A DNA stretch of 10,360 bases from Pseudomonadota bacterium. GTDB taxonomy: Bacteria > Desulfobacterota > Syntrophia > Syntrophales > JADFWA01. A model generated the notes under the pieces. That model made no database searches and had not been told where the DNA came from. It saw only the letters and a list, made by a program, of their open reading frames with translations. A program made the position numbers and the translations under genes. This document shows positions 80 through 10,360 of this stretch, in pieces. The stretch is from contig JADFWA010000110.1 in the NCBI GenBank assembly GCA_015222855.1, forward strand, positions 1 to 10,360, read 5' to 3'. Each line of letters starts with the position of its first letter. Position 1 is the first letter of the stretch.

Positions 80-240
80 AGGCACAAAGGCACAGAGGCA
101 CAAAGGGACAGAGTAAATATGTTCTATTGGTTTAATTGGTTCTATTAGTTCTATTGGTTAACCAATGAAACAAATGAAACTAATTGAACTAATAAAACTG
201 TTTTGTTCTTTTTTCTTTGTGCCTTTGTCACTTTGTGCCT
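80..240. repeat. Composite palindrome: octamer-repeat outer arms, nonamer-repeat inner arms
   Basis: This nearly perfect inverted repeat of about 160 bp has almost no loop. Its centre is the 14-bp palindrome ATTGGTTAACCAAT at 153-166. The outer left arm (80-111) is four tandem 8-nt units: AGGCACAA, AGGCACAG, AGGCACAA, AGGGACAG. The outer right arm (215-240), read on the minus strand, repeats the same octamer phase, and 23 of 26 positions match. The inner left arm (121-156) is four 9-nt units: GTTCTATTG, GTTTAATTG, GTTCTATTA, GTTCTATTG. The inner right arm mirrors them in the same phase, with 30 of 39 matching. Five of those nine mismatches would be G-U wobbles in RNA. The element fills most of the frr-uppS spacer. 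No T-run follows it, so it is not a standard intrinsic terminator. Confidence 0.9.
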
Positions 241-260
241 GAGTATCACAAACATCAACT

Positions 261-989
261 ATGGAAAGAATTGACAAAACAAAACTTCCTCAACACATAG
301 CCGTAATCATGGATGGTAATGGGAGATGGGCCAGAATCCATTCCGTGTCAAGGATAGAGGGTCACAGGAAGGGCTCCGAATCTGTGAGGGACATTGTGAG
401 AACATGTCGTGAGATCGGCATAAAGTATCTCACCCTCTATGCCTTTTCCGTCGAGAACTGGCTCCGCCCCGCCACAGAGGTGCGGGCGTTGATGGGCTTG
501 CTTGAAAAATTTCTGCGTTCAGAGCTTCAGGAGATGCAGGATAGCGACATCAGACTGATGGCCATAGGTGACATTGAGGGGCTTTCCAGAGGGGTAAAAA
601 AAGTTCTACGGGAAGCGATTGAAAAAACATCTGAAAATAAGGGAATGGTACTAAATCTGGCTCTCAGTTATGGCGGCAGAGATGAAATTGTCGAGGCGAC
701 AAAGAGGATATTGAAAGATAGTAATGCCGGCAAAATTACACACGAGGATATTACTAAAGAAATATTTTCAGATTATCTGTATACCTCGGGCATGCCTGAT
801 CCGGATTTGCTGATCAGGACGAGTGGCGAATACAGATTGAGTAATTTTCTCCTGTGGCAGTCGGCTTATACAGAATTTTATTTTACAGATACCTTGTGGC
901 CGGATTTTCGCGGAGAAAAACTTATCAAGGCTATCGCGGACTATCAGAACCGAGAAAGGAGATTCGGCCTGACAAGTGACCAGTCGTAA
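261..989 (+). CDS. uppS: Isoprenyl transferase (undecaprenyl diphosphate synthase)
   Basis: This cytoplasmic cis-prenyltransferase adds eight isopentenyl units to farnesyl diphosphate, giving the C55 lipid carrier of cell-wall synthesis. The 242-residue length is normal. Visible hallmarks are IAVIMDGNGRWA (13-24, with the metal-binding Asp18), H35, AFSVENW (61-67), LNLALSYGGRDEI (131-143) and the C-terminal signature from PDLLIRTSGE (181-190) through SNFLLWQ (194-200). The start is fixed by sequence: an in-frame TGA lies at 240-242, and no ATG, GTG or TTG occurs between it and 261. No Shine-Dalgarno motif is visible before the ATG, which sits 20 nt downstream of the palindrome. cdsA follows after 14 nt. 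The substrate comes from the MEP pathway, in which dxr, two genes downstream, acts. Confidence 0.97.
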   Translation: MERIDKTKLPQHIAVIMDGNGRWARIHSVSRIEGHRKGSESVRDIVRTCREIGIKYLTLYAFSVENWLRPATEVRALMGLLEKFLRSELQEMQDSDIRLMAIGDIEGLSRGVKKVLREAIEKTSENKGMVLNLALSYGGRDEIVEATKRILKDSNAGKITHEDITKEIFSDYLYTSGMPDPDLLIRTSGEYRLSNFLLWQSAYTEFYFTDTLWPDFRGEKLIKAIADYQNRERRFGLTSDQS

Positions 990-1003
990 AGAAGCCCTGC
1001 ATT

Positions 1004-1813
1004 ATGATGACCCCCCATATAAAAAGATGGATCACAGGAATCGTAGCGGTACCGATTATCTTTGCCATTATAATTTATGGTTCTAAGATGGTGTTTGCGG
1101 CTTTTGTCATGTTGCTTATTCTGGGAGCTGTAACAGAGTACAACAGTATGATTTTCGGAAAAGGGTTCTACTGGGAGAAGGTAGAAGGGTTAGTGATAGG
1201 CTTGTTGATACCCCTTGCGGCATGCCTTGGAGATATTCAGTTTGAATTTGCCATAATAACATTTCTCTTGATTATTGTATTTCTCTCTTTTCTGTTCAGG
1301 TTTAAAAACGGTTCAGTTGATCTTGCCAATTTAAGCAAGGTTGTATTCGGTTTTATGTATATCCCGCTTATGATGTCCTATCTTATATTTATACGAGATT
1401 TTGAAAGGGGGATATTATGGATATTTTTCATTATAGTTCTCGCGTTTTCCGGTGATATAGCCGCTTTTTACGTGGGCAAATCCATCGGTAAAAAGAAATT
1501 GATACCACATGTCAGTTCAGGAAAGACGGTGGAAGGAACGATCGGTCTGGTCGGTGGAAGTATCATAGGATGTGTCATATTTAAACTGTTATTTTTACCT
1601 GAGGTTTTGTTTGGTCACGCAGTATTATTAGGTCTTGTCGGGAGTATCCTCGGGCAGTTGGGAGATCTCTGCGAGTCTACAATTAAAAGGACTTCGGGTG
1701 TGAAAGATTCCGGCTTTTTCCTGCCGGGTCATGGCGGGATACTGGATCGGTTAGACTGTCTTCTTTTTATTATCCCCTTTGTTTATTATTACAAGGTATT
1801 TGTAATAAAATGA
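1004..1813 (+). CDS. cdsA: Phosphatidate cytidylyltransferase (CDP-diglyceride synthase)
   Basis: This integral inner-membrane enzyme makes CDP-diacylglycerol from CTP and phosphatidic acid, the branch point for all phospholipids. It has 269 residues and about seven to eight hydrophobic segments, for example 10-42, 62-75, 82-99, 113-130, 138-150, 178-198, 204-220 and 252-265. The family signature is clear near the C-terminus: S225, KR at 228-229, KD at 234-235, PGHGG at 241-245 and DRLD at 248-251. The upstream SGDIAAFYVGKSIGKKK stretch (149-165) is also characteristic. It starts 14 nt after uppS; an ATG-ATG pair leaves residue 1 or 2 open as the initiator, with only a weak AAGAAG upstream. 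Its product feeds PssA, encoded further along. The stop codon directly abuts an inverted repeat. Confidence 0.96.
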   Translation: MMTPHIKRWITGIVAVPIIFAIIIYGSKMVFAAFVMLLILGAVTEYNSMIFGKGFYWEKVEGLVIGLLIPLAACLGDIQFEFAIITFLLIIVFLSFLFRFKNGSVDLANLSKVVFGFMYIPLMMSYLIFIRDFERGILWIFFIIVLAFSGDIAAFYVGKSIGKKKLIPHVSSGKTVEGTIGLVGGSIIGCVIFKLLFLPEVLFGHAVLLGLVGSILGQLGDLCESTIKRTSGVKDSGFFLPGHGGILDRLDCLLFIIPFVYYYKVFVIK

Positions 1814-1906
1814 TTATTTAGCCACTAAGTCACTAAGACACAAAGGAAAAATGAAATTATACTACAATATTATAATCTTAGTGCCTTCGTGTCTTTGTGG
1901 CTAATA
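1814..1906. repeat. Octamer-unit inverted repeat between cdsA and dxr
   Basis: The left arm (1820-1844) contains AGCCACTA, AGTCACTA, AGACACAA in perfect 8-nt phase. The right arm (1878-1903), read on the minus strand, gives AGCCACAA, AGACACGA, AGGCACTA. The arms pair at 21 of 26 positions, and the five mismatches fall at every fourth base, which are the two variable positions of the AGNCACNA unit. TTATT-type flanks extend the stem outward, and ATTATA/TATAAT pairs in the loop region. The element begins right after the cdsA stop and ends about 15 nt before dxr, filling the spacer. There is no trailing T-run. Confidence 0.85.
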
Positions 1907-1921
1907 AGGTAACGTAATTAT

Positions 1922-3088
1922 ATGAAAAACATATCAATTCTTGGATCGACAGGCTCCATAGGCGTAAGCACGCTTGATGTGGCAGGCAGCAACCCTTCCA
2001 TGTTTAGGGTTGTGGCGCTGTCCGCCGGTAAGAATGTCAGCCTCCTGAAGGAACAAATTGATAAATTCAGACCAAAGGTTGTGTCTGTTCTTGATGAAGA
2101 TGGTGCTTACAGGCTCAAAGAAATGCTCGATTCGTCTCCACAGGTAAAGATTTTATGGGGAGCTGATGGATACAGAGAGGTTGCTTCCGTAAAAGAAGTG
2201 GATATGGTGGTCTCGGCCATAGTCGGAGCGGCGGGACTTCTTCCCACTATGGAGGCAATTGACGCGGGAAAGGATATAGCCCTTGCCAATAAAGAGACCA
2301 TGGTCATGGCGGGAAGTCTTGTCGTTGAAAAGGCCGCATCGAAAGGTGTAACGATATTGCCTGTTGACAGTGAACACAATGCCATTTTCCAGTGCCTGGC
2401 AGGCAGCAGGCGGGAGGATGTTAAGAGAATCATTCTTACCGCGTCCGGAGGCCCTTTTCTCTATCTGCCAGTGGAGGAACTCTCAAAAGTTAAGCTTGCC
2501 GATGCACTGAAACATCCCAACTGGGAGATGGGGAAAAAGATCACCATAGATTCCGCCTCCATGATGAACAAGGGACTTGAAGTTATCGAGGCAAAGTGGC
2601 TTTTTGATGTTGATATTGATAAAATTGATGTACACATTCACCCTCAAAGCATAGTCCATTCCATGGTGGAATACATAGACGGTTCGGTTGTGGCCCAACT
2701 GGGTGTTGCTGATATGAGGGGTCCGATATCCTACGCGCTTTCCTATCCGGAGAGGCTTTCACGAGAAGATCATGCCTTAAACCTGTTTGATGTGGGGCCT
2801 TTGGAATTTATTCCCCCGGATTTTGATAAATTCCCCAATCTGAAACTCGCGTACGTTGCCGGAAGAAAAGGGGGAACAATGCCTGCCGTTTTAAATGCCT
2901 CGAACGAGGTGGCCGTGGAGGCTTTTATTGCTGAGAAAATAGAATTTATGGATATGACGGTAGTTGTAAGAGATACTCTTTCCTCACATCGGCAAAAAGA
3001 GATTTCATCTATTGGAGATGTACTCGAAGCAGACAGGTGGGCAAGGGATAAGGCGGCAAAATATATCAAATATCAAAATGAAAAATGA
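1922..3088 (+). CDS. dxr: 1-deoxy-D-xylulose 5-phosphate reductoisomerase
   Basis: This cytoplasmic NADPH- and divalent-metal-dependent enzyme converts DXP to 2-C-methyl-D-erythritol 4-phosphate, the first committed MEP-pathway step. It has 388 residues; the E. coli enzyme has about 398. Motifs are the Rossmann loop GSTGSIGVSTLDV (8-20), NKET (123-126), VDSEHNAIFQC (148-158, with metal ligands D149 and E151), SGGPF (175-179), HPNWEMGKK (198-206) through SASMMNKGLE (211-220, with ligand E220) and HPQSIVHSMVEY (240-251). The ATG is preceded by AAGG at 1906-1909, a weak site with long (12 nt) spacing. The last eight codons (YIKYQNEK) and the stop lie inside the left arm of the downstream palindrome, so the native tail was probably replaced by repeat sequence. 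The catalytic core is unaffected. Confidence 0.97.
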   Translation: MKNISILGSTGSIGVSTLDVAGSNPSMFRVVALSAGKNVSLLKEQIDKFRPKVVSVLDEDGAYRLKEMLDSSPQVKILWGADGYREVASVKEVDMVVSAIVGAAGLLPTMEAIDAGKDIALANKETMVMAGSLVVEKAASKGVTILPVDSEHNAIFQCLAGSRREDVKRIILTASGGPFLYLPVEELSKVKLADALKHPNWEMGKKITIDSASMMNKGLEVIEAKWLFDVDIDKIDVHIHPQSIVHSMVEYIDGSVVAQLGVADMRGPISYALSYPERLSREDHALNLFDVGPLEFIPPDFDKFPNLKLAYVAGRKGGTMPAVLNASNEVAVEAFIAEKIEFMDMTVVVRDTLSSHRQKEISSIGDVLEADRWARDKAAKYIKYQNEK

Positions 3089-3186
3089 AAAAGTAAAATA
3101 ATTTGTCATTCTGAATTTATTTCAGAATCCCATTTTGCATTTTGCATTTTGATATTTGATATAATCCTTTTAACCTTTAACCTCAA
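3062..3186. repeat. Heptamer-unit palindrome overlapping the dxr 3' end
   Basis: The left arm is phased in 7-nt units: ATATCAA (3063), ATATCAA (3070), AATGAAA (3077), AATGAAA (3084), AAGTAAA (3091). The stem 3062-3080 / 3145-3163 is perfect over 19 bp. The right arm continues as AAAATGC heptamers on the minus strand. An internal hairpin ATTCTGAA / TTCAGAAT (3108-3115 / 3121-3128, 5-nt loop) closes the top. On the outer right side, 3166-3186 reads on the minus strand as two GGTTAAA heptamers joined to AGGATT. The element includes the dxr stop (3086-3088) and ends just upstream of the rseP ribosome-binding site. Confidence 0.9.
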
Positions 3187-3195
3187 TATACATTG

Positions 3196-3202
3196 AAAGG
3201 AG
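3196..3202 (+). promoter_or_regulatory. Strong Shine-Dalgarno fixing the rseP TTG start
   Basis: AAAGGAG lies 6 nt before a TTG at 3209. It is the best ribosome-binding site in the window and supports TTG as the rseP initiator. A nearby GTG at 3205 is out of frame. Confidence 0.8.
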
Positions 3203-3208
3203 AAGTGT

Positions 3209-4276
3209 TTGGTCGGTATAAACATAATATCTGTAGTCATTCTTCTGGGAGTATTGATCTTTGTCCACGAGCTTGGCCATTTTCTGGTGGCCAAGTGTTC
3301 AGGAGTAGGTGTATTGAAATTTTCTCTCGGGTTCGGTCCCAAATTGATAGGGAAAAAGATTGGTGAGACGGAATATATTATTTCACTGATACCACTGGGC
3401 GGCTATGTGAAACTTCTGGGGGAATCCTCGGAGGATGAAATATCGGAGGATGACGAGAAAAGATCTTTCCTGAGGCAACATGTGTCAAAAAGGATAGGAA
3501 TAGTTGCAGCCGGCCCCGCCTTCAATTTCCTTTTCGCCGTGGTCGTGTTTGCCATTATTTACATGGTTGGAGTTCCCGTTCTGACCTCGGAAGTCGGGGG
3601 TGTTCAGGAAGGGTTTCCCGCCTATGAAGCTGGAATTAAGGAGGGGGATATCATACTGGACATCAATGGGAAGGACGTCTCCAGTTGGTCTGAACTTGCC
3701 GGCATTATTTTTGATAGCAAAGGACAGGAACTAAAAATAAGGATAAGCAGAAATAATGAAATAAATGAAATAAGATTAAGGGCAAAACTGGTAAAGTCGA
3801 AGAATATTTTTGGTGAAGAGATTGATTCATATAAAATAGGCATAAGTGCAGCCCCTGACACCGTCATTGAGAGGTTAAATCCCTTCAGTGCATTTTGGGC
3901 CGGGATTGAACAATCATGGTTCATTACGAAAATCACGCTGATAAGTATTGCAAAAATGGTGAAAGGTGATCTCTCGCCCAAAACGCTGGGTGGTCCTATT
4001 CTGATCGCGCAGATGGCGGGTGCGCGTGTCCAGGAAGGGATAATGCCATTCGTATTTTTCATGGCTTTACTGAGTATAAACCTTGGGATAATTAACCTTC
4101 TTCCTGTTCCTCTCCTTGATGGGGGACACCTTTTCTTCTACATCATTGAACTGGTGTCGGGGAAGGAGGTAAATGTGAGATGGAGAGAAATGGCGCAGCA
4201 GATAGGATTCGTACTGTTAATAATGTTAATGATGTTTGTCTTTTATAATGATATAATGAGAATATTTGGTAAATAG
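3209..4276 (+). CDS. rseP: RseP/MmpA-type site-2 zinc metalloprotease
   Basis: This inner-membrane intramembrane protease cleaves anti-sigma factors and signal-peptide remnants within the membrane; its target here cannot be read from the sequence. It has 355 residues. The first transmembrane helix carries the zinc motif HELGH (20-24). GPAFNFLFA (102-110) is the conserved second element. One PDZ domain spans about 126-215, where E. coli RseP has two. The second active-site motif NLLPVPLLDGGH (296-307, with D304 as third zinc ligand) lies in a C-terminal helix, and a final helix is near 332-347. Initiation is at TTG with a strong AAAGGAG site. The dxr-rseP order is conserved in many bacteria. 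The gene sits between two repeat elements sharing an exact 37-bp sequence. Confidence 0.96.
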   Translation: MVGINIISVVILLGVLIFVHELGHFLVAKCSGVGVLKFSLGFGPKLIGKKIGETEYIISLIPLGGYVKLLGESSEDEISEDDEKRSFLRQHVSKRIGIVAAGPAFNFLFAVVVFAIIYMVGVPVLTSEVGGVQEGFPAYEAGIKEGDIILDINGKDVSSWSELAGIIFDSKGQELKIRISRNNEINEIRLRAKLVKSKNIFGEEIDSYKIGISAAPDTVIERLNPFSAFWAGIEQSWFITKITLISIAKMVKGDLSPKTLGGPILIAQMAGARVQEGIMPFVFFMALLSINLGIINLLPVPLLDGGHLFFYIIELVSGKEVNVRWREMAQQIGFVLLIMLMMFVFYNDIMRIFGK

Positions 4277-4449
4277 GCAAAGGATTATATCAAATATCAA
4301 ATATCAAAATGAAAAATGAAAAAGTAAAATGGAAAACCAACCGGTTTTTCTAGGATATTATTACATTGCACAATCCTCCTGATTTTACTTTTAAATTTCC
4401 TGTTTTGATATTTGCATTTTTTGCCCTTAACCCTTAGCCTTTAGCCTGT
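4277..4449. repeat. Heptamer-unit palindrome with extra GGCTAAA arm, between rseP and tsaB
   Basis: The left arm is in 7-nt phase: ATATCAA at 4287, 4294 and 4301, AATGAAA at 4308 and 4315, AAGTAAA at 4322. Positions 4294-4330 are identical to 3063-3099. The right arm 4382-4414 pairs with 4298-4330, with 12 and 10 perfect base pairs at the two ends. The top carries small hairpins: AAAACC / GGTTTT at 4333-4338 / 4343-4348, and AGGAT / ATCCT at 4352-4356 / 4373-4377. The distal part (about 4420-4449) reads on the minus strand as GGCTAAA, GGCTAAG, GGTTAAG, GGCAAAA. It is a second heptamer family that has only a GGCAAA remnant on the left side. It ends about 6 nt before the tsaB ATG. Confidence 0.85.
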
Positions 4450-4455
4450 AATATT

Positions 4456-5157
4456 ATGTTGACATTAGCGATCGATACATCTACAAAAACGGGAAGCGTT
4501 GCCCTTCTGAAGGGTGCTTCTATACTGGCGGAGTGTTTTACAAATGCGGGAATAAATCATTCGGAGACCTTACTGCCGACGATAGAAACCGTACTTTCAG
4601 TTGGAGGTGTAGAGATAGGAGAGGTTGATTTGTTCGCACTTACAACGGGCCCAGGTTCCTTTACAGGGCTTCGGATAGGTGCAAGTACCGTTAAAGGGCT
4701 TGCTCTTGCCACAGGCAAGCCGGTTGTGGGCGTATCCACAATGGATGCCCTTGCTTTGAATGTTGCTGATTCAACGATTACAATCTGTCCCATGCTGGAC
4801 GCCAGGAAAAGAGAAGTATATACCGCGCGTTACAGGCCCGTCAAAAACGGTATGCCTGAAAAGCTGGAAAGCGAAAAGGTTGTTGACGCTGAGGAATTTT
4901 TAAAAAGCTTGAACGAAGATGTCATATTTTTAGGTGATGGCGCAAAAAACTACGTTGGGCTTATTAGAGAAATCCTGCCTGACAGGTCATGTTTTGCGTC
5001 TCCCCATCTTCAATATGTAAAGGCTTCTGCTGTGGGCCTTATAGGGATGAAGAAATTTAGTGACGGGGATATACTGGAGTTAATGACTTTTACCCCTCAA
5101 TATCTCCGCCTTTCTGAGGCGGAAGTAAAAAAGGTCGCAGAGGCGGGAAGAAAATGA
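4456..5157 (+). CDS. tsaB: tRNA t6A37 biosynthesis protein TsaB
   Basis: TsaB is the non-catalytic ASKHA-fold partner of TsaD and TsaE in forming N6-threonylcarbamoyladenosine at position 37 of ANN-decoding tRNAs (cytoplasm). It has 233 residues, normal for the family. Visible motifs are LAIDTSTKTGSVAL (4-17), NHSETLLPTI (34-43), the signature TTGPGSFTGLRIG (63-75), GKPVVGVSTMDALA (87-100) and MLDARKREVY (113-122). No RimI acetyltransferase domain is fused. The ATG at 4456 has no Shine-Dalgarno motif, since the preceding bases are the pyrimidine-rich end of a heptamer array; TTG at 4459 is an in-frame alternative. TsaD and TsaE are not encoded in this window. Confidence 0.95.
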   Translation: MLTLAIDTSTKTGSVALLKGASILAECFTNAGINHSETLLPTIETVLSVGGVEIGEVDLFALTTGPGSFTGLRIGASTVKGLALATGKPVVGVSTMDALALNVADSTITICPMLDARKREVYTARYRPVKNGMPEKLESEKVVDAEEFLKSLNEDVIFLGDGAKNYVGLIREILPDRSCFASPHLQYVKASAVGLIGMKKFSDGDILELMTFTPQYLRLSEAEVKKVAEAGRK

Positions 5158-5191
5158 TTTTTCATCGAATTCCATGGGAGGTAAGTAGTTT

Positions 5192-5410
5192 ATGGAAAGG
5201 GCAGAAGAAGAGTTAATCGCAAAGTATATCGGTCAGGATGAAGAATTAAGAGAATGTGTTGAAGATCACAGGAAACTTGAAGCTGCGCTGGAAGATTTTA
5301 ACAGAAGAATCTATATTACACCGGAAGAAGAGTTGGAGAAAAAGAAGATTCAGAAGTTGAAACTTCTGGGTAAGGATAAAATTTTTAAAATTTTGGCAAA
5401 ATATCGATGA
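5192..5410 (+). CDS. Small DUF465 (YdcH-like) protein
   Basis: A 72-residue, highly charged, probably all-helical protein without signal peptide or membrane segment. The arrangement fits the DUF465/YdcH family: an N-terminal helix with H26 followed by K28 and L29, a short turn with the T43-P-E-E-E acidic cap, then a second helix with KKIQKLKLLGKDKIF (51-65). That family forms short two-helix hairpins and has no established molecular function. Initiation is well supported by GGGAGG at 5176-5181, 10 nt before the ATG. It starts 34 nt after tsaB with no repeat element in between, and its stop abuts a heptamer palindrome. Family assignment is from motif pattern only; reality as a gene is likely from the ribosome-binding site and composition. 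Confidence 0.8.
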   Translation: MERAEEELIAKYIGQDEELRECVEDHRKLEAALEDFNRRIYITPEEELEKKKIQKLKLLGKDKIFKILAKYR

Positions 5411-5515
5411 AATACAGGTTAAAGGCGAAAGGCTAAGGGCTAAAGGCTAAAGGTGAGCGGTTAAAAGCAAAAGGTTTTACCCTTAGCCCTTAGCCTTTCG
5501 CCCTTTGTCTTGTAT
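5411..5515. repeat. GGCTAAA heptamer palindrome between DUF465 gene and psd
   Basis: Starting at 5417, eight consecutive 7-nt units can be read: GGTTAAA, GGCGAAA, GGCTAAG, GGCTAAA, GGCTAAA, GGTGAGC, GGTTAAA, AGCAAAA. The right arm mirrors the first units, giving a perfect 20-bp stem 5424-5443 / 5483-5502. This is extended outward with bulges to ATACA / TGTAT at 5412-5416 / 5511-5515. An inner hairpin can form between GGTTAAAA (5459) and TTTTACC (5475-5481). The element begins directly after the upstream stop and ends 11 nt before psd. A T-rich tail is absent. Confidence 0.92.
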
Positions 5516-5526
5516 CTGGTAAGCTT

Positions 5527-6168
5527 ATGAATCATAATAGTATTATTGTTCGGGAAGGGTTTCTTTTTATTATACCCCTTGGAATTTTGACGGTTATTCT
5601 TGCCTATGCAGGGGTGGTTTGGGCGGCGGCCTTCTTCTTCATTGTTACTTTATTTGTTACATGGTTTTTCCGCAATCCGGAAAGAAAGACTCCTGAGGAT
5701 GAAAATGTAGTTGTATCTCCGGCCGATGGAAGGATTCTGAAGATAGAAGAGGTCATGGAAAATGCCATATTAAAGGGTAAATTTAAGAAAATAAGCATAT
5801 TTATGAACGTCTTCAATGTTCACGTAAACAGGATACCTTATTCCGGAAGGGTGGATGTTATCCAGTATAGAGAAGGCAAGTTTTTTTCTGCCAATCTGGA
5901 CAAGGCATCGTCTCTCAATGAAAGGAACTCAGTCCTTATTAAGACCGATGATGGGAGGGAGATTCTCACCATCCAGATAGCGGGAATAATAGCCAGGAGG
6001 ATCGTCTGCTGGATAAAAGAGGGGATAAAAATCGAAAGGGGGCGGCGTTTCGGTCTCATTCGCTTTGGATCGAGACTCGAAGTTTTCCTTCCCATTGATT
6101 CAACCATTTCGGTGAAAGTGGGAGACAGGGTCAAGGGGGGTGAGACACCGATAGGGTATCTGTCATGA
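5527..6168 (+). CDS. psd: Phosphatidylserine decarboxylase, short archaeal-type proenzyme
   Basis: This membrane-bound, pyruvoyl-dependent enzyme decarboxylates phosphatidylserine to phosphatidylethanolamine. It has 213 residues, typical of the short Psd/archaetidylserine-decarboxylase-like class rather than the roughly 300-residue E. coli class. Two hydrophobic helices (about 12-30 and 33-48) precede FRNPER (48-53). Conserved blocks are VSPADGRI (63-70), FMNVFNVHVNR (92-102) and NERN (131-134). The self-cleavage site is G181-S182 in RFGLIRFGSRLEVFLP, where Ser182 would become the pyruvoyl group, giving a large beta and a small C-terminal alpha chain. The final GGETPIGYL is also typical. The start has only a weak GGTAAG upstream. 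The stop overlaps the pssA start (ATGA), so the two are probably translationally coupled. Confidence 0.95.
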   Translation: MNHNSIIVREGFLFIIPLGILTVILAYAGVVWAAAFFFIVTLFVTWFFRNPERKTPEDENVVVSPADGRILKIEEVMENAILKGKFKKISIFMNVFNVHVNRIPYSGRVDVIQYREGKFFSANLDKASSLNERNSVLIKTDDGREILTIQIAGIIARRIVCWIKEGIKIERGRRFGLIRFGSRLEVFLPIDSTISVKVGDRVKGGETPIGYLS

Positions 6169-6959
6169 AAAACAGAGAAAGAAGAATTAAGAAAGACAGT
6201 ATGAAAAAAGGGATTTATATCCTGCCGAATCTCTTCACCACGGCAAGCCTCTTTTGCGGGTTTTATTCGGTGATTAACTCAATGAAGGGGGAGTTTTCTC
6301 TGGCGGCAACCGCGATTATATTCGCCATTGTCCTTGATAGTCTGGACGGAAGGATAGCCAGGATGACCGGCACGACAAGCAAGTTTGGCGCTGAATATGA
6401 TTCCCTGGCAGATCTGGTTGCCTTTGGTGTCGCGCCTGCAATCCTTTCATATACATGGGCGCTTTCCACCTTTGGCAGATGGGGATGGCTTGCCTCCTTT
6501 CTGTTTGTTGTCTGCGGAGCGCTCAGGCTTGCGAGATTCAATATCCAGATCGGCATTATAGAAAGCAGGATGTTTAACGGGCTTCCTATACCGGCTGCCG
6601 CTTCGGTTGTGGCAACGGGAGTACTCCTTTTCTATTATCTGGGGGGAGTTGGCCAGCTTAATCATCCGGCCATATTAATAGGCACAATCGCCCTCTCTTT
6701 ATTGATGGTTAGCAGTATAAAATACTACAGTTTTAAAGACTTGAACCTTTTTTCAAGAAAACCCTTTATGTCCTTTGTCTTGATTGTTGTTATACTGATT
6801 ATAGTGATTGCAGAGCCTCAGATAATGCTTTTTACGCTTGCTTTCGGTTATAGTATCTCAGGTCCCGCGTGGACGCTAACTAAAATTGCGAGGAAAAAGA
6901 GTGTTAAAAGGTCCGAAGAGCAGAGTCAGGAAACAAGAAGTAAGGGGTGGTTTGTATGA
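6165..6959 (+). CDS. pssA: CDP-diacylglycerol-serine O-phosphatidyltransferase
   Basis: This membrane enzyme makes phosphatidylserine from CDP-diacylglycerol and serine; its substrate comes from CdsA and its product goes to Psd, both encoded in this window. The CDP-alcohol phosphatidyltransferase motif is complete: D58, D61-G62, A65-R66, G75, D79, D83. The opening GIYILPNLFTTASLFCGFY (16-34) is typical of bacterial type II PssA. Further hydrophobic helices lie near 87-120, 145-160, 170-182 and 200-230. The ATG at 6165 overlaps the psd stop and gives 264 residues with a basic N-terminal extension; ATG 6201 (M13) is a reasonable alternative, and neither has a strong ribosome-binding site. The C-terminal tail is basic and hydrophilic. 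Confidence 0.95.
   Translation: MKNRERRIKKDSMKKGIYILPNLFTTASLFCGFYSVINSMKGEFSLAATAIIFAIVLDSLDGRIARMTGTTSKFGAEYDSLADLVAFGVAPAILSYTWALSTFGRWGWLASFLFVVCGALRLARFNIQIGIIESRMFNGLPIPAAASVVATGVLLFYYLGGVGQLNHPAILIGTIALSLLMVSSIKYYSFKDLNLFSRKPFMSFVLIVVILIIVIAEPQIMLFTLAFGYSISGPAWTLTKIARKKSVKRSEEQSQETRSKGWFV
6942..6947 (+). promoter_or_regulatory. Shine-Dalgarno supporting the asd ATG at 6956
   Basis: AAGGGG lies within the pssA coding end, 8 nt before ATG 6956. An upstream GTG at 6947 in the same frame overlaps this motif, so the ATG is the better start. Confidence 0.65.
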
Positions 6960-7972
6960 GGAAATACAATGTGGCCGTTGTTGGCGCAACGGGCGCTGTG
7001 GGAAGTGAAATGATTAATATCCTGGAGGAGAGGGATTTTCCGGTGAATGAACTGACGCTTCTTGCCTCGGAGCGCTCATGGGGAAAGGAACTGGAGTTTA
7101 AGGGGGAACCTTATCCTGTAAAGGTGCTGGATGAGAATTCTTTTGAAGGCATCGAGATAGGGCTCTTTTCGGCCGGTGGCAGTATAAGCGAGCGATTTGC
7201 ACCCATTGCCGCCCAGGCGGGTTGCGTAGTTATAGATAATACCAGCGCCTTCAGGATGGACCCCGATGTTCCTCTCGTTGTTCCGGAGGTGAATCCAGGG
7301 GCTATCGGACAATATAGGAAAAAAGGAATAATTGCGAATCCGAATTGCTCTACTATCCAAATGGTTGTGGCCTTGAAGCCTATTCATGACACAGCCAAAA
7401 TAAAGAGGATTGTGGTGTCCACCTATCAGGCCGTGTCGGGAACGGGCAAGGATGCCATTGAAGAACTTTCTAAGCAAACGAGCGCGCTTTTGAATCTTGA
7501 AGAGCCAAAGGTGGAGGTATATCCCCACAGGATTGCCTTCAACTGCCTGCCCCAGATAGATGTATTTCTGGATAACGGTTATACCAAAGAAGAGATGAAG
7601 ATGGTGAACGAGACCAGAAAGATCATGGAAGACGATTCGATAGCCGTTACCGCAACCACAGTGAGGGTGCCCGTTTTTTATTCCCATTCAGAATCGGTCA
7701 ACATTGAAACGGAAAGAAAAATTACCCGTGAAGAGGTAAAAGATATACTTTCAAGGGCGCCGGGGGTCACGGTTGTTGATAACCCCGGCAAATCTGAATA
7801 TCCTCTTGCAATAGATGCCGCCGGCCGGGATGATACCTTCGTCGGAAGAATAAGGGAGGATGAGTCGATAGCGAACGGTATCAATATGTGGATTGTATCG
7901 GACAACCTGAGGAAGGGCGCGGCCCTTAATACGATACAGATCGCGGAGGTCCTTATCAGGGAATATTTATAG
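6956..7972 (+). CDS. asd: Aspartate-semialdehyde dehydrogenase
   Basis: This cytoplasmic NADPH-dependent enzyme reduces aspartyl phosphate to aspartate 4-semialdehyde, feeding lysine/diaminopimelate, threonine and methionine synthesis. It is 338 residues from the ATG chosen here, the normal length of this class; a GTG at 6947 would add three residues. Motifs are VAVVGATGAVGSEM (6-19), SAGGSISERFAP (72-83), VIDNTSAFRMD (92-102), the catalytic block ANPNCST (127-133, nucleophile C131), STYQAVSGTGK (155-165) and VRVPVFYSHSES (237-248, with H244 as likely base). The start overlaps the pssA stop as ATGA and has AAGGGG 8 nt upstream. The TAG stop lies within the first unit of a heptamer array. Confidence 0.96.
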   Translation: MRKYNVAVVGATGAVGSEMINILEERDFPVNELTLLASERSWGKELEFKGEPYPVKVLDENSFEGIEIGLFSAGGSISERFAPIAAQAGCVVIDNTSAFRMDPDVPLVVPEVNPGAIGQYRKKGIIANPNCSTIQMVVALKPIHDTAKIKRIVVSTYQAVSGTGKDAIEELSKQTSALLNLEEPKVEVYPHRIAFNCLPQIDVFLDNGYTKEEMKMVNETRKIMEDDSIAVTATTVRVPVFYSHSESVNIETERKITREEVKDILSRAPGVTVVDNPGKSEYPLAIDAAGRDDTFVGRIREDESIANGINMWIVSDNLRKGAALNTIQIAEVLIREYL

Positions 7973-8012
7973 AGTGAAGAATGAAAAGTGAAGAGTGAAA
8001 AATGAATAAAGG
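7971..8012. repeat. One-armed AGAGTGA heptamer array between asd and rsmD
   Basis: Five units in perfect 7-nt phase start inside the asd stop codon: AGAGTGA (7971), AGAATGA (7978), AAAGTGA (7985), AGAGTGA (7992), AAAATGA (7999). They are followed by ATAAAGG and CTGAAGG (8006-8019), the latter containing the likely rsmD ribosome-binding site. Unlike the other elements, no complementary TCACTCT arm is present nearby. AAAATGA also occurs in the elements near 3076 and 4307, which links the families. Confidence 0.75.
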
Positions 8013-8015
8013 CTG

Positions 8016-8019
8016 AAGG
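8016..8019 (+). promoter_or_regulatory. AAGG ribosome-binding site for the rsmD GTG start
   Basis: AAGG, within GAAGG, lies 6 nt before the GTG at 8026. It appears to be part of the last unit of the heptamer array. Confidence 0.55.
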
Positions 8020-8025
8020 TTTTTT

Positions 8026-8574
8026 GTGAGGATTATTGGAGGGAAAGCAAAAGGGAGACGCATATTTGTACCAAAGGGTCGGATCAGGCCTACGTCGGAT
8101 ATGATCAAGGAAGCGCTTTTCAATATGCTGCCTTCAATGGAAGGAAAGTTGTTTCTTGATCTCTTTGCCGGAACAGGTAATATCGGCTTGGAGGCCCTGA
8201 GCAGGGGGGCTGCAAAGACCGTATTCGTTGAAGTGAATACCCTCTTCATCGAGGCAATCAAAAGGAACCTGAATACATGCGGTTTTGATAGTAACTATGA
8301 AATAGTATCGGCGCCGGTGGAGAAGGGTCTCAAACTGCTTGGCAAAAGAAGAGACCAGTTCAATATTATATTTGCCGATCCGCCCTATGAAAAAAATCTC
8401 ATAAAAAAAACTTTGCACTTACTTGATGGCAGTGATCTGATTTCAGAAGATGGTATCATGATTATACAGCATTCCTTGAGGGAAGAATTGGAGGGGGATG
8501 TCGGTAATTTTATACTGACAGACCGGAGAAGGTATGGCGATACTATAATTTCTTTTTTTGGATTAAGTTGTTGA
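8026..8574 (+). CDS. rsmD: 16S rRNA (guanine966-N2)-methyltransferase
   Basis: This SAM-dependent cytoplasmic enzyme methylates G966 of 16S rRNA in the small-subunit head. It has 182 residues, the standard size. It opens with MRIIGGKAKGRRI, the typical RsmD N-terminus, followed by RPTSDMIKEALFN (21-33). SAM-binding motif I is LDLFAGTGNIGLEALSRGA (44-62), the acidic loop of the second strand is FVEVN (67-71), and the catalytic DPPY is at 118-121. Initiation is at GTG 8026, supported by GAAGG 6 nt upstream and by alignment of the family N-terminus. coaD follows after 12 nt, a widely conserved pairing that supports both names. Confidence 0.95.
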   Translation: MRIIGGKAKGRRIFVPKGRIRPTSDMIKEALFNMLPSMEGKLFLDLFAGTGNIGLEALSRGAAKTVFVEVNTLFIEAIKRNLNTCGFDSNYEIVSAPVEKGLKLLGKRRDQFNIIFADPPYEKNLIKKTLHLLDGSDLISEDGIMIIQHSLREELEGDVGNFILTDRRRYGDTIISFFGLSC

Positions 8575-8586
8575 GGGAAGTAAATT

Positions 8587-9069
8587 ATGCATAAATTGGC
8601 GGTTTACCCCGGTTCGTTCGATCCCATTACCAACGGTCATATTGACATAATCAAGAGAGGACTCCGAGTTATTGATGAACTTATCATAGTGGTTTCTTAC
8701 AATCCTAACAAAACGGCGCTCTTCTCCGTTGAGGAAAGGATTGACATGATAAGAGAAGTAATAGGGGATGATCCAAGGGTCAAGATTGACAGCTTTTCGG
8801 GACTTATCGTTGATTATGCGAGAAAAGCGAATGCGGATGTTATTTTGAGGGGTCTTAGGGCAATGTCGGAGTTTGAATATGAGTTCCAGTTGGCCCTTAT
8901 CAACAGGAGACTTGACAGGGATATTGAGACGATGTTTCTGATGACAGGCTATAAATGGTTTTATACAAGTTCTCATATAATAAAGGAGGCTGCAAGTTTT
9001 GGCGGTTCGGTAAAGGGATTGGTTCCGGATCTTATCATCAAGAAGTTGCAGGAAAAATATTCAAAATGA
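8587..9069 (+). CDS. coaD: Phosphopantetheine adenylyltransferase
   Basis: This cytoplasmic hexameric enzyme makes dephospho-CoA from 4'-phosphopantetheine and ATP, the penultimate step of coenzyme A synthesis. It has 160 residues, the family norm. The nucleotidyltransferase motif is YPGSFDPITNGH (7-18, with the T/HxGH histidine H18). K42, RGLR (88-91) and the C-terminal TSSHIIKEAASFGG (127-140), the ISSTxxR/K-type motif, are all present. Translation is supported by GAGGGAAG at 8573-8580, which overlaps the rsmD stop and lies about 8 nt from the ATG. The stop overlaps the next start as ATGA (9066-9069), suggesting coupling. Confidence 0.97.
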   Translation: MHKLAVYPGSFDPITNGHIDIIKRGLRVIDELIIVVSYNPNKTALFSVEERIDMIREVIGDDPRVKIDSFSGLIVDYARKANADVILRGLRAMSEFEYEFQLALINRRLDRDIETMFLMTGYKWFYTSSHIIKEAASFGGSVKGLVPDLIIKKLQEKYSK

Positions 9070-10265
9070 AATTGGCAGCAAGAACAACCAGAATAAAACC
9101 CTCACCAACGCTTGCAATTACCATGAAGGCAAATGCATTGCGGGCAGAGGGGAGGGACGTTATAAGTTTTGGGGCGGGTGAACCGGATTTTGATACCCCT
9201 TACAATGTTAAAATGGCAGCAATAGAGGCCATAGAAGCGGGATTTACAAAGTACACGCCTGTGGGTGGCACGGATGAGCTTAAGGATGCCATCATAGGCA
9301 AGCTGCAACTGGATAATAACCTGACCTACAGAAGGTCGCAGATAGCTGTTTCCTGTGGGGCAAAACATACCCTCTACAATCTTGCCCAGGCCCTTTTCGA
9401 AGAGGGAGATGAGGTTATTGTTCCCTCGCCTTACTGGGTTTCCTATCCCGATATTATTCTCCTTTCCGGGGCAACGCCGGTGATTCTTGAGACGAAAGAA
9501 TCCGACGGATTTAAAATAGGTCCCGGACAACTCGATAGGGCTATTACGGAAAACACAAGAGCCGTTGTATTAAACAGCCCATCAAATCCTACCGGAGTTG
9601 TCTACTCCTATGCAGAGCTTGAAGCCCTGGCGGAGGTAATCGTAAAAAAGGATATCCTTGTGATTTCCGATGATATTTATGAAAAGATTATTTACGATGA
9701 TTGCCGTTTTTGTAATATAGCTTCCGTTAGTGAAGAGATGAAAAAAATGACTGTAGTGGTTAATGGTGTTTCAAAAACCTACGCCATGACGGGGTGGAGA
9801 ATCGGTTATATCGCCGGTCATGAGGATATTATTTCCGCCATTACAAAAATTCAAAGTCAGAACACATCGAACCCCACGTCCATCTCGCAAAAGGCGGCAG
9901 TAGAGGCACTGAACGGGAGTCAGGACATTGTGGCCATGATGGTGAGAGAATTTAAGGACAGAAGAGACTATATTGTGGAAAGGCTTAACAATATTCCCGG
10001 TGTCAACTGCATGAACCCAAAGGGAGCATTTTACGTATTTCCTGATGTATCCTCACTGTACGGGATGTCCTGTGATGGCAGGAAAATATCCAGTTCCACC
10101 AGTCTCGCGGAGTATCTTCTGGATGAAGCAAACGTTGCCGTTGTCCCCGGTGTTGCCTTTGGTAATGATGATCACATACGTCTTTCCTACGCCATGTCGA
10201 TGAAGGATATTGAAGAGGGCTTGCAGAGGATAGATGATGCCGTAACAAAACTGACGGCTTCGTAA
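9066..10265 (+). CDS. PLP-dependent aspartate aminotransferase (class I, AspC I-gamma-like)
   Basis: A fold-type I aminotransferase, most likely transferring the aspartate amino group to 2-oxoglutarate; some relatives also use prephenate, so exact specificity is open. From ATG 9066 it is 399 residues, the usual size. Motifs are GAGEPDFDTP (36-45), GAKHTLYN (98-105), SPYWVSYPD (121-129, with the ring-stacking aromatic residue), NSPSNPTG (170-177), SDDIYEKI (201-208) and the Schiff-base block NGVSKTYAMTGWRIG (233-247, with K237). HIRLSYA near the C-terminus carries the substrate-carboxylate arginine. An in-frame ATG at 8955 would add 37 residues that are only the out-of-frame reading of coaD, so 9066 is preferred; AGGA (9050-9053) lies upstream. 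With asd, it links oxaloacetate to aspartate-family amino acids. Confidence 0.93.
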   Translation: MKLAARTTRIKPSPTLAITMKANALRAEGRDVISFGAGEPDFDTPYNVKMAAIEAIEAGFTKYTPVGGTDELKDAIIGKLQLDNNLTYRRSQIAVSCGAKHTLYNLAQALFEEGDEVIVPSPYWVSYPDIILLSGATPVILETKESDGFKIGPGQLDRAITENTRAVVLNSPSNPTGVVYSYAELEALAEVIVKKDILVISDDIYEKIIYDDCRFCNIASVSEEMKKMTVVVNGVSKTYAMTGWRIGYIAGHEDIISAITKIQSQNTSNPTSISQKAAVEALNGSQDIVAMMVREFKDRRDYIVERLNNIPGVNCMNPKGAFYVFPDVSSLYGMSCDGRKISSSTSLAEYLLDEANVAVVPGVAFGNDDHIRLSYAMSMKDIEEGLQRIDDAVTKLTAS

Positions 10266-10287
10266 GATATATTTTACGTAACTACTC

Positions 10288-10319
10288 AGCCACAAAGTCA
10301 CCAAGACACAAAGTGTAGA
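10288..10319. repeat. Left arm of another octamer-unit element, cut by the window end
   Basis: Three 8-nt units AGCCACAA, AGTCACCA, AGACACAA (10288-10311) are followed by a degenerate fourth unit. The unit order matches the left arm at 1820-1843, and the first 26 nt differ at only two positions. It starts 22 nt after the aminotransferase stop. The complementary arm, if present, lies beyond 10360; 10320-10360 is AT-rich with nothing else recognisable. Confidence 0.75.
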
Positions 10320-10360
10320 AATTAATTATATTTTCCCTTAATCTCCGGAAAATTTTATTA

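Follow-up and report, generated by a model that had tools for sequence, protein, structure and literature searches.

A close known relative of the repeats reported here is the intervening sequence (IVS) of the 23S rRNA gene with its S23p open reading frame (ORF). In Coxiella burnetii, as given in the available text of PMC4990558, terminal inverted repeats form a hairpin with a 28-bp stem that encloses an S23p-family ORF. Tandem heptamers stand before this ORF in numbers that vary between strains, and one strain has lost a large part of it; transposition, according to the same text, had been suggested earlier. In this work we focused on seven intergenic repeat features in a 10,360-nt stretch of DNA (the window; all positions refer to its + strand), which is one whole contig (G000:C6, JADFWA010000110.1) of a metagenome-assembled genome (MAG) of 1.9 Mb in 423 contigs, hereafter G000. 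They are probably gene-less copies of small mobile elements whose complete form is an ORF between inverted arms of phased tandem units, and we are fairly sure of the identity of the window features themselves. The 23S rRNA IVS is a known special case of such a repeat-armed element. It differs in being located in rRNA, from which RNase III excises it, whereas the copies studied here lie in spacers of protein operons and on plasmids; those of the window lack the ORF, and a second ORF family, GxxExxY, has the same architecture.

Other systems share single traits with these elements. The GGGAATC heptamers of Xanthomonas and Nostoc form spacer arrays, and in two Xanthomonas genomes 70 and 75 pairs of them are inverted and convergent; the available part of PMC4692102 treats them as G-quadruplexes and names no cargo gene. 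Repetitive extragenic palindromes (REP and REPIN elements) are intergenic palindromes tied to a small gene, the REP-associated tyrosine transposase (RAYT), but their arms have no tandem phase. Miniature inverted-repeat transposable elements (MITEs) resemble the present copies as short non-coding sequences with inverted ends, target duplications (8 bp in the 8-mer family described below) and a coding relative; here, in contrast, the ends are phased tandem units and the coding partner is not a known transposase. Short tandemly repeated repetitive sequences (STRRs) of cyanobacteria, so named in the original papers, are degenerate intergenic heptamer arrays described as simple tandem repeats. Eukaryotic foldback (FB) transposons, in architecture only, have similarly long inverted arms of short tandem repeats, but are much longer.

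Repeat-armed elements with and without a gene

A sequence-only reading of the window had described seven features with phased units of 7, 8 or 9 nt, five of them as inverted arms, and one architecture with several unit lengths. Both descriptions stand: the period lay beyond that of dinucleotide shuffles (500 per element) in all seven, five consist of inverted arms, and the architecture recurs genome-wide with several unit lengths. Inverted-repeat scores over the five two-armed elements ranged from 34 to 75, four of them above every one of 300 shuffles; the weakest, 4277-4449, equalled with its score of 34 the best of 300 shuffles. The scan of G000 covered 60 of the 423 contigs (282 kb, the window's own included), 57 taken in number order and 3 long ones picked for holding hits. 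The excess of phased spacers that the sequence-only reading called for was present: of 125 spacers measuring 60 nt or more, 32 reached a period score of at least 12 against a shuffled mean of 0.0, and lag 7 was found in 18 of the 20 spacers scoring at least 14. None of 81 coding windows (105 nt) reached a score of 12 for lags 7, 8, 10 and 11. Orthologous spacers of relatives differed in the presence or absence of elements, and no conserved terminators stood in place of the elements.

Pieces of the window were compared with the flanks of 42 four-helix, 18 GxxExxY and 11 RAYT loci, the first of these families (PF05635) having been chosen for similar repeats around that gene. Eight of nine pieces matched the arms of coding loci above the level of shuffled flanks, and two such loci (L337 and L063) lie in G000 itself. 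The 7-mer pieces matched four-helix loci: 5411-5515 scored 43.5 with L337 (null maximum 16.5), 3058-3165 and 4277-4340 scored 31 and 33 with L344 of G001 (null maxima 21 and 18.5), 4419-4449 scored 23 with L337 (12.5), and 7971-8012 scored 24 with L345 and 23 with L063 (16.5). The 8-mer pieces matched GxxExxY loci, namely 1806-1918 and 72-112 with L228 (34 and 20, null maxima 15.5 and 13.5) and 10281-10360 with L299 (26, null maximum 16.5). The four-helix identity of L337, L344 and L063 was given by TIGR02436 (E 7e-32 to 1e-25), and L337 also matched XCC0516 (2GSC) at E 4.8e-12; the 7-mer copies of the window are without this ORF. At L228, in genome G116, 8-mer arms surround one ORF, which codes for a GxxExxY protein (TIGR04256 E 2.5e-40, PF13366 E 4.3e-38), and the same arrangement was found at L287 and L299.

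The distribution of arms and genes points in the same direction. PF13366 was present in 12 of 100 relatives, comprising 6 of 6 with the 8-mer pattern and 6 of 94 others (hypergeometric probability by hand ~8e-7, an overstated significance since four of the six genomes belong to one family). A seventh pattern-positive genome, G116, lies outside the 100-genome set and has its GxxExxY gene at L228. CACNAAG arms together with GxxExxY are common to G002 and G116, which belong to different genera. By eye, GxxExxY genes mostly stand between inverted arms with units of 8-11 nt, the unit sequences differing between loci, and PF05635 genes, found in 52 of the 100 relatives, mostly between inverted arms with units of 7-8 nt.

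Flanks were also scored without reference to the window. Inverted arms with a score of at least 12 were found at 15 of 19 GxxExxY, 29 of 31 four-helix and 22 of 26 RAYT loci, and at 50 of 224 control ORFs; with a period z of at least 3 in addition, the counts were 6 of 19, 19 of 31, 0 of 26 and 7 of 224. The loci scored were best-scoring hits, not all hits: 20 of 30 PF13366 loci (10 partial or weak ones excluded) plus L228, 2 of which were not scorable, 30 PF05635 loci plus L063, and 28 of 29 PF01797 loci, 2 of them not scorable. RAYT is the fairer control, its genes having inverted arms as well, but without phase.

Protein similarity between genomes correlated with arm similarity in both families (four-helix r=0.349, n=50; GxxExxY r=0.429, n=31; both P=0.0005, the floor of 2000 permutations), the values for outer-flank similarity being r=0.196 and r=0.146, respectively. 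Because protein similarity tracks the arms more than the outer flanks, arm-ORF-arm appears to behave as one unit. Similar proteins and similar arms in surroundings at background level were seen in the locus pairs L348/L354, L318/L323, L331/L339, L287/L228 and L307/L298, and likewise in the plasmid pairs L458/L459 (Aulosira/Nostoc) and L454/L455 (Geminocystis/Nostoc). At the level of sequence comparison it is shown that the short copies share the arms of coding copies, and that arms and ORF go together across genomes.

The architecture was also found in other bacteria. PF13366 was present in 17 of 47 genomes reached via named loci, including Verrucomicrobiota and Gammaproteobacteria; many of the 26 PF13366 loci in these genomes have, by eye, inverted unit arms, and some are without them. 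Plasmid records (14 of 17 for four-helix and 3 of 7 for GxxExxY genes) were scored with no control: inverted-arm scores of at least 18 were obtained for 12 of 14 four-helix genes, 13 of the 14 being cyanobacterial, and for all 3 GxxExxY genes (Gemmatirosa, Bernardetia, Bacteroides finegoldii). Since the plasmid sequences are complete, the architecture does not stem from MAG assembly. Lag 7 was found on both sides at 11 of 14 plasmid four-helix loci, and at 11 of the 13 cyanobacterial ones. The units of these plasmid arrays are GGGAAAA, AGTAGGG, AGTCAGG and similar words, which resemble the kind known as STRR heptamers. The sequence-only reading had set the STRR-type arrays apart as a separate case; this separation does not hold on plasmids, where the arrays have the same architecture, with arms around four-helix genes. 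In literature listings, no report tying STRRs to a gene or to inverted arms was found. Four-helix elements were also seen between CRISPR genes (L456, L460 and L457), with cas6/cas4 as neighbours in Anabaena sp. 90 and Pseudanabaena and cas10/cmr3 in Picosynechococcus.

As to the proteins, 31 GxxExxY sequences were aligned: one D and one K each occur in 90% or more of the rows, and the E and L of ELK in 60% or more, a residue pattern as would be expected of a PD-(D/E)XK fold. No solved structural relative of the GxxExxY protein was found and a PADLOC search gave no match. Viral contigs held 4 stretches with the pattern, none of them a relative of the elements, and the L228 protein had no match in 50,697 phage records (the four-helix protein was not searched there). 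The literature found on GxxExxY is, in the text available, a passing mention. In the parts of the sources accessible, PF05635 is said to resemble the Avd protein of diversity-generating retroelements (PMC10053308), four-helix genes are placed between housekeeping genes in the genome of a fish pathogen (PMC5524665), and a term related to PF05635/TIGR02436 appears in PMC10910872. No reverse transcriptase (PF00078) was found in G000, a genome about 80% complete.

We propose that in a complete element two inverted arms, each composed of degenerate tandem units with a fixed length, enclose one ORF some 100-130 codons long. The slot is occupied either by a four-helix-bundle protein (PF05635/TIGR02436, 23S rRNA intervening-sequence protein), mostly between 7-8-nt units, or by a GxxExxY protein (PF13366/TIGR04256, PD-(D/E)XK nuclease-like), mostly between 8-11-nt units. 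The arms would be the DNA ends recognised by the moving machinery, and the ORF product would act on them. Perhaps one subunit is bound per unit, because the relative XCC0516 is a ring of five four-helix bundles (available text of PMC4990558; a title cited in PMC10053308) and, by eye, about four to five units make up many of the arms. Short copies would arise by loss of the ORF, as remnants in 2 of 31 complete 8-mer copies suggest, and could be moved in trans; spacers of operons would fill up since insertion is tolerated there.

A wider proposal is a real possibility, which we put forward tentatively and would not call probable. According to it, bacteria would harbour an unnamed, widespread class of minimal mobile elements, in which inverted arms of phased 7-11-nt units enclose one small ORF, for either a GxxExxY nuclease or a four-helix ring protein like Avd. 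The encoded protein would recognise the arms one unit at a time and mobilise the element, and its specificity would diverge together with the arm sequence. The 23S rRNA IVS, cyanobacterial STRRs, Xanthomonas heptamers and many spacer palindromes would then be complete, rRNA-borne or gene-less forms. If the seven features are what we propose, two small protein families (four-helix bundle and GxxExxY), STRR-type and other heptamers, and spacer palindromes become parts of one testable thing, and in some lineages much of the DNA in spacers would be debris of one class of tiny elements. The 23S rRNA IVS, the function and origin of which are called unclear in the available text of PMC4990558, would gain a place in a wider mobile family. 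Literature searches, which missed most subscription journals and are weak evidence of absence, found no report that brings all these observations together, and those by sequence letters gave unrelated papers.

Insertion of the 8-mer family

The 8-mer arm pattern was found at 28 places in G000. Aligned copies have fixed ends, GTAACTAYTCAGCCAC and its inverse at most of them, and the complete relatives in G000 of the element at 10278-10360 mostly measure 95-215 nt. Matches to the end pattern, in which one two-ended element can score twice, occurred in 7 of 155 genomes of the order (G000 69, G030 55, G001 11, G003 3, G115 2, G116 2 and G002 1); G014, of the same genus as G030, had 0 against 55. 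As far as genome sequences tell, this patchy spread is the behaviour of a mobile family.

A perfect 8-bp direct repeat stood exactly at the ends of 8 of 31 complete distinct 8-mer copies, in five genomes, compared with 0.11% of 930 swapped flank pairs, and none of the 31 scored in this way for a 9-bp duplication. By this comparison the 8-mer family is shown to insert into DNA with an 8-bp target duplication.

One window copy could be compared with its empty site. There, in G002, the end of cdsA overlaps dxr (GTAATCAAATGAAAA), with a single GTAATCAA. In G000 the junction reads GTAATAAA, element, GTAATTAT, ATG: the left copy of the target duplication, GTAATAAA (8 bp, 1802..1809), lies at the end of cdsA, the short 8-mer element (ATGATTATTTAGCCAC..GTGGCTAATAAGGTAAC) occupies 1810..1913, and the right copy GTAATTAT, with 2 mismatches, stands ahead of the dxr ATG (1914..1921). 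The stop codon of cdsA comes from the first bases of the element, which is common to G001 (TATAATAAA, element, GTAATTAG, ATG). In the period test the inner part of this element, 1814-1906, had its best lag at 8 (score 10.5, shuffle maximum 9.0).

Two of the 31 complete 8-mer copies contain a whole GxxExxY ORF (L228 and L225, the latter being the locus of L287), and two contain a clear piece of its end (L025 in G000, E 1e-13; L251 in G030, E 4e-6). Partial GxxExxY genes in G030 were considered as deletion forms and rejected as such, those examined (L299, L306, L310 and L229) stopping at contig ends and so at assembly breaks. Contigs ending inside 8-mer elements or the GxxExxY gene were seen in G000 (for example C6, C299, C316 and C407) and G030 (C7, C129 and C170). 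The repeats thus break the MAG assemblies, and copy numbers are lower bounds.

Evidence against mobility and competing explanations

Several results weigh against the reading of the window features as gene-less mobile elements. No transposase was found, in searches that covered only IS66 (PF03050) and Y1_Tnp. IS66 had been a guess at the mobiliser from the 8-bp duplication and GTAA ends, which presumably fit that family, and was rejected for want of a match in G000. Target duplications flanked 2 of 39 complete four-helix loci (3.9% of swapped pairs, no excess) and 3 of 20 complete GxxExxY loci (5.3%, no clear excess), 39 of 44 and 20 of 27 loci having passed the arm and flank filter. Since there is no excess at four-helix elements, insertion with duplication is shown for the 8-mer family only. 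Of the 31 complete 8-mer copies, 27 had no ORF remnant above the shuffled level, among them that of the window, so that for these the arms are the evidence of descent from coding copies. No coding relative was found for the hairpin at 121-199, which scored 15 with the arms of coding elements (null 17.5), and 4 of 19 GxxExxY and 2 of 31 four-helix loci had no arms at threshold. In the pairs L331/L332 and L397/L411 the outer flank is shared as well, so the correlation of protein and arm partly reflects vertical descent. Moreover, the null of the arm matches consisted of mononucleotide-shuffled flanks in six repeats, and many control ORFs have coding flanks, so that the contrast in flank scores is in part one of spacer and coding DNA. 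In Xanthomonas, 90% of the heptamers lie between the same genes in two species, and the available part of PMC4692102 gives no general link to mobile elements.

Alternatively, the short copies could be MITEs mobilised by an ordinary transposase with 8-bp target duplications, the two small ORFs being passengers or regulators, an explanation that we regard as possible but somewhat doubtful. With its GTAAC..GTTAC ends and 8-bp duplication, the 8-mer family resembles a DDE-type element. Neither small ORF belongs to a known transposase family, and the coding partner that shares the ends of the 8-mer copies encodes GxxExxY; in addition, one four-helix copy, L350, is enclosed by a larger frame that has ends of its own and a perfect 8-bp duplication. 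Among the loci collected, GTAAC end pairs more than 400 nt apart numbered three. Against it, IS66 gave weak matches only in G001 and G030, and from genome to genome the arms follow the ORF in sequence, as would not be needed for a passenger. It is unlikely that an RNA structure, such as an intercistronic hairpin, an attenuator or an RNase III site like that of the 23S rRNA IVS, and not a role as mobile DNA ends, is the reason why the elements persist. Two of three window elements tested had a strong RNA fold (z -4.3 and -7.9), and RNase III cuts the 23S IVS hairpins (PMC4990558, text available). The purine-rich arm came first in 14 of 18 co-directional spacers (P=0.013, one tie excluded), an order consistent with some transcript-level bias. 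Selected pairing in the sense RNA should lean arm mismatches to G-U, and no such lean was found, with 54 G-U against 50 A-C mismatches in 44 four-helix elements and 28 against 30 in 23 GxxExxY elements; orthologous spacers also differ freely. The purine-rich 5' arm, seen in 48 of 55 blocks of four-helix elements, may also serve the ORF as a ribosome-binding stretch. None of 18 terminator-like sites fell within an element in a scan limited to loops of 3-8, which speaks against RNA function as well, and intrinsic terminators (GC-rich stem plus T-run) were rejected on that result.

The sequence-only reading had suggested a process that copies short units and folds back; as weighed here, it would act at each site by slippage and template switching, with no heritable element. 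We hold this to be quite improbable, since the arms follow the ORF between genomes and loci, CACNAAG arms with GxxExxY are shared between genera, and the 8-mer family has its target duplications; the protein-arm correlation likewise argues against units made anew per site. On its side, unit vocabularies at the same spacer differ, by eye, among G000, G001 and G003. Template switching between arms and slippage within them could plausibly keep both arms alike while unit sequences drift, and the copy-and-fold-back idea may describe this joint drift. Least credible of all are variant REP/REPIN elements mobilised by RAYT transposases (PF01797): G000 has 3 RAYT genes and, by eye, many GTAG-type palindromes, but RAYT flanks, inverted in 22 of 26, were periodic in none, 0 of 11 matched a window piece above null, and RAYTs occur in 29 of 41 relatives against 7 of 155 genomes for the 8-mer family.

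The RAYT genes themselves are bounded by palindromes. The three of G000 (L049-L051, on contigs C71, C294 and C394) have short ones, of GTAG type at two, which form a second, separate class of intergenic palindrome; REPIN-like pairs are, by eye, common in spacers. Many RAYT genes of the order (L252-L280) are flanked by a short inverted word, e.g. GGGGTCAGGTCTTT or GGGGACAG, unlike the GTAG type.

Features and genes of the window

The first feature, 80-240, had been read as one inverted repeat. It is inverted and periodic (best lag 9, score 17.5, shuffle maximum 9.0), but nested: by period and inversion, an 8-mer (CACAAAGG-type) element with its left arm at 80..113 and its right arm at 211..240 encloses a 9-mer (GTTCTATTG-type) hairpin at 121..199 (arms 121-159 and 160-199). 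An exact pattern for the 9-mer family, which misses the window copy and so yields lower bounds, had 10 matches in G000, 1 in G003 and 0 in the other 58 of 60 genomes. The 9-mer loci examined are short hairpins without an ORF between the arms, several of them nested in 8-mer elements.

Within the 3' end of dxr, and coding for its last residues, lies a 7-mer element with ATATCAA/AAAATGA units at 3062..3163 (arms 3062-3092 and 3133-3163). The feature 3062-3186 had its best lag at 7 (17.5, shuffle maximum 13.5). This element was found in G000 only, dxr and rseP nearly adjoining in G001 and G002, and AATATA at 3060..3065 may be the left half of a decayed target duplication with its other copy at 3185-3190, as read from comparison with these two genomes. 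The last codons of dxr (3058-3088) are supplied by the inserted element, and the end of the protein differs in G001 and G002.

The interval 4277-4449 (best lag 7, 23.0, shuffle maximum 14.5) had likewise been taken as one inverted repeat. Inverted 7-mer arms were found in an element at 4287..4421 of the same family as 3062-3163 (array 4287-4336, inverted arms 4298-4330 and 4382-4414), but a second array of other units, TTTAGCC, stands at 4419..4447. The 7-mer element at 5411..5515 (AAAGGCT units; best lag 7, 19.0, shuffle maximum 12.5) forms a strong hairpin with an RNA fold z of -7.95. Two arrays had been listed as one-armed. That at 7971..8012 (GTGAAAA/GAATGAA units; best lag 7, 14.5, shuffle maximum 14.0) is truly so, a single surviving 7-mer arm that does not fold. 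The other, 10288-10319 (best lag 8, score 8.0, attained by 0.4% of shuffles), belongs instead to a two-ended 8-mer element, the left end of which (GTAACTACTCAGCCACAAAG..) covers 10278..10360 and is cut where the contig stops at 10360. No Rfam family was found in the window at gathering scores.

Some four-helix arrays elsewhere (L350, L353, L347 and L357, in G002 and G030) lie within a larger frame with ends like GGATCATCTCC..GGAGAAGAACC, and outside these ends L350 has the perfect 8-bp duplication AAAAACAA. At L342 (G001:C95) a four-helix gene has much longer arm units of about 18-27 nt, GAGGAGCGGCCTGCGGC-like, so that unit length may exceed 7-11 nt.

In the spacers of a flagellar contig (L083), inspected by eye, arrays are present in all seven shown for G001 and in most for G003, where two spacers (near 3440-3585 and 9255-9515 in L083 coordinates) have none. 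Their units are not the same, e.g. GTTCAGTG in G003 and GGTTAGAAGG in G001; either such spacers are refilled repeatedly or the arrays at one site change words. At L391 (G003:C204) and L392 (G001:C114), the same flagellar operon spacers are filled with each genome's own unit vocabulary.

The genes of the window, named here by our reading of their ORF sequences, are co-directional: uppS, cdsA, dxr, rseP, tsaB, a small conserved ORF, psd, pss, asd, rsmD, coaD and an aminotransferase gene. Their order is largely retained among the relatives compared, and each spacer of at least 50 nt, by these gene limits, contains one of the seven features.

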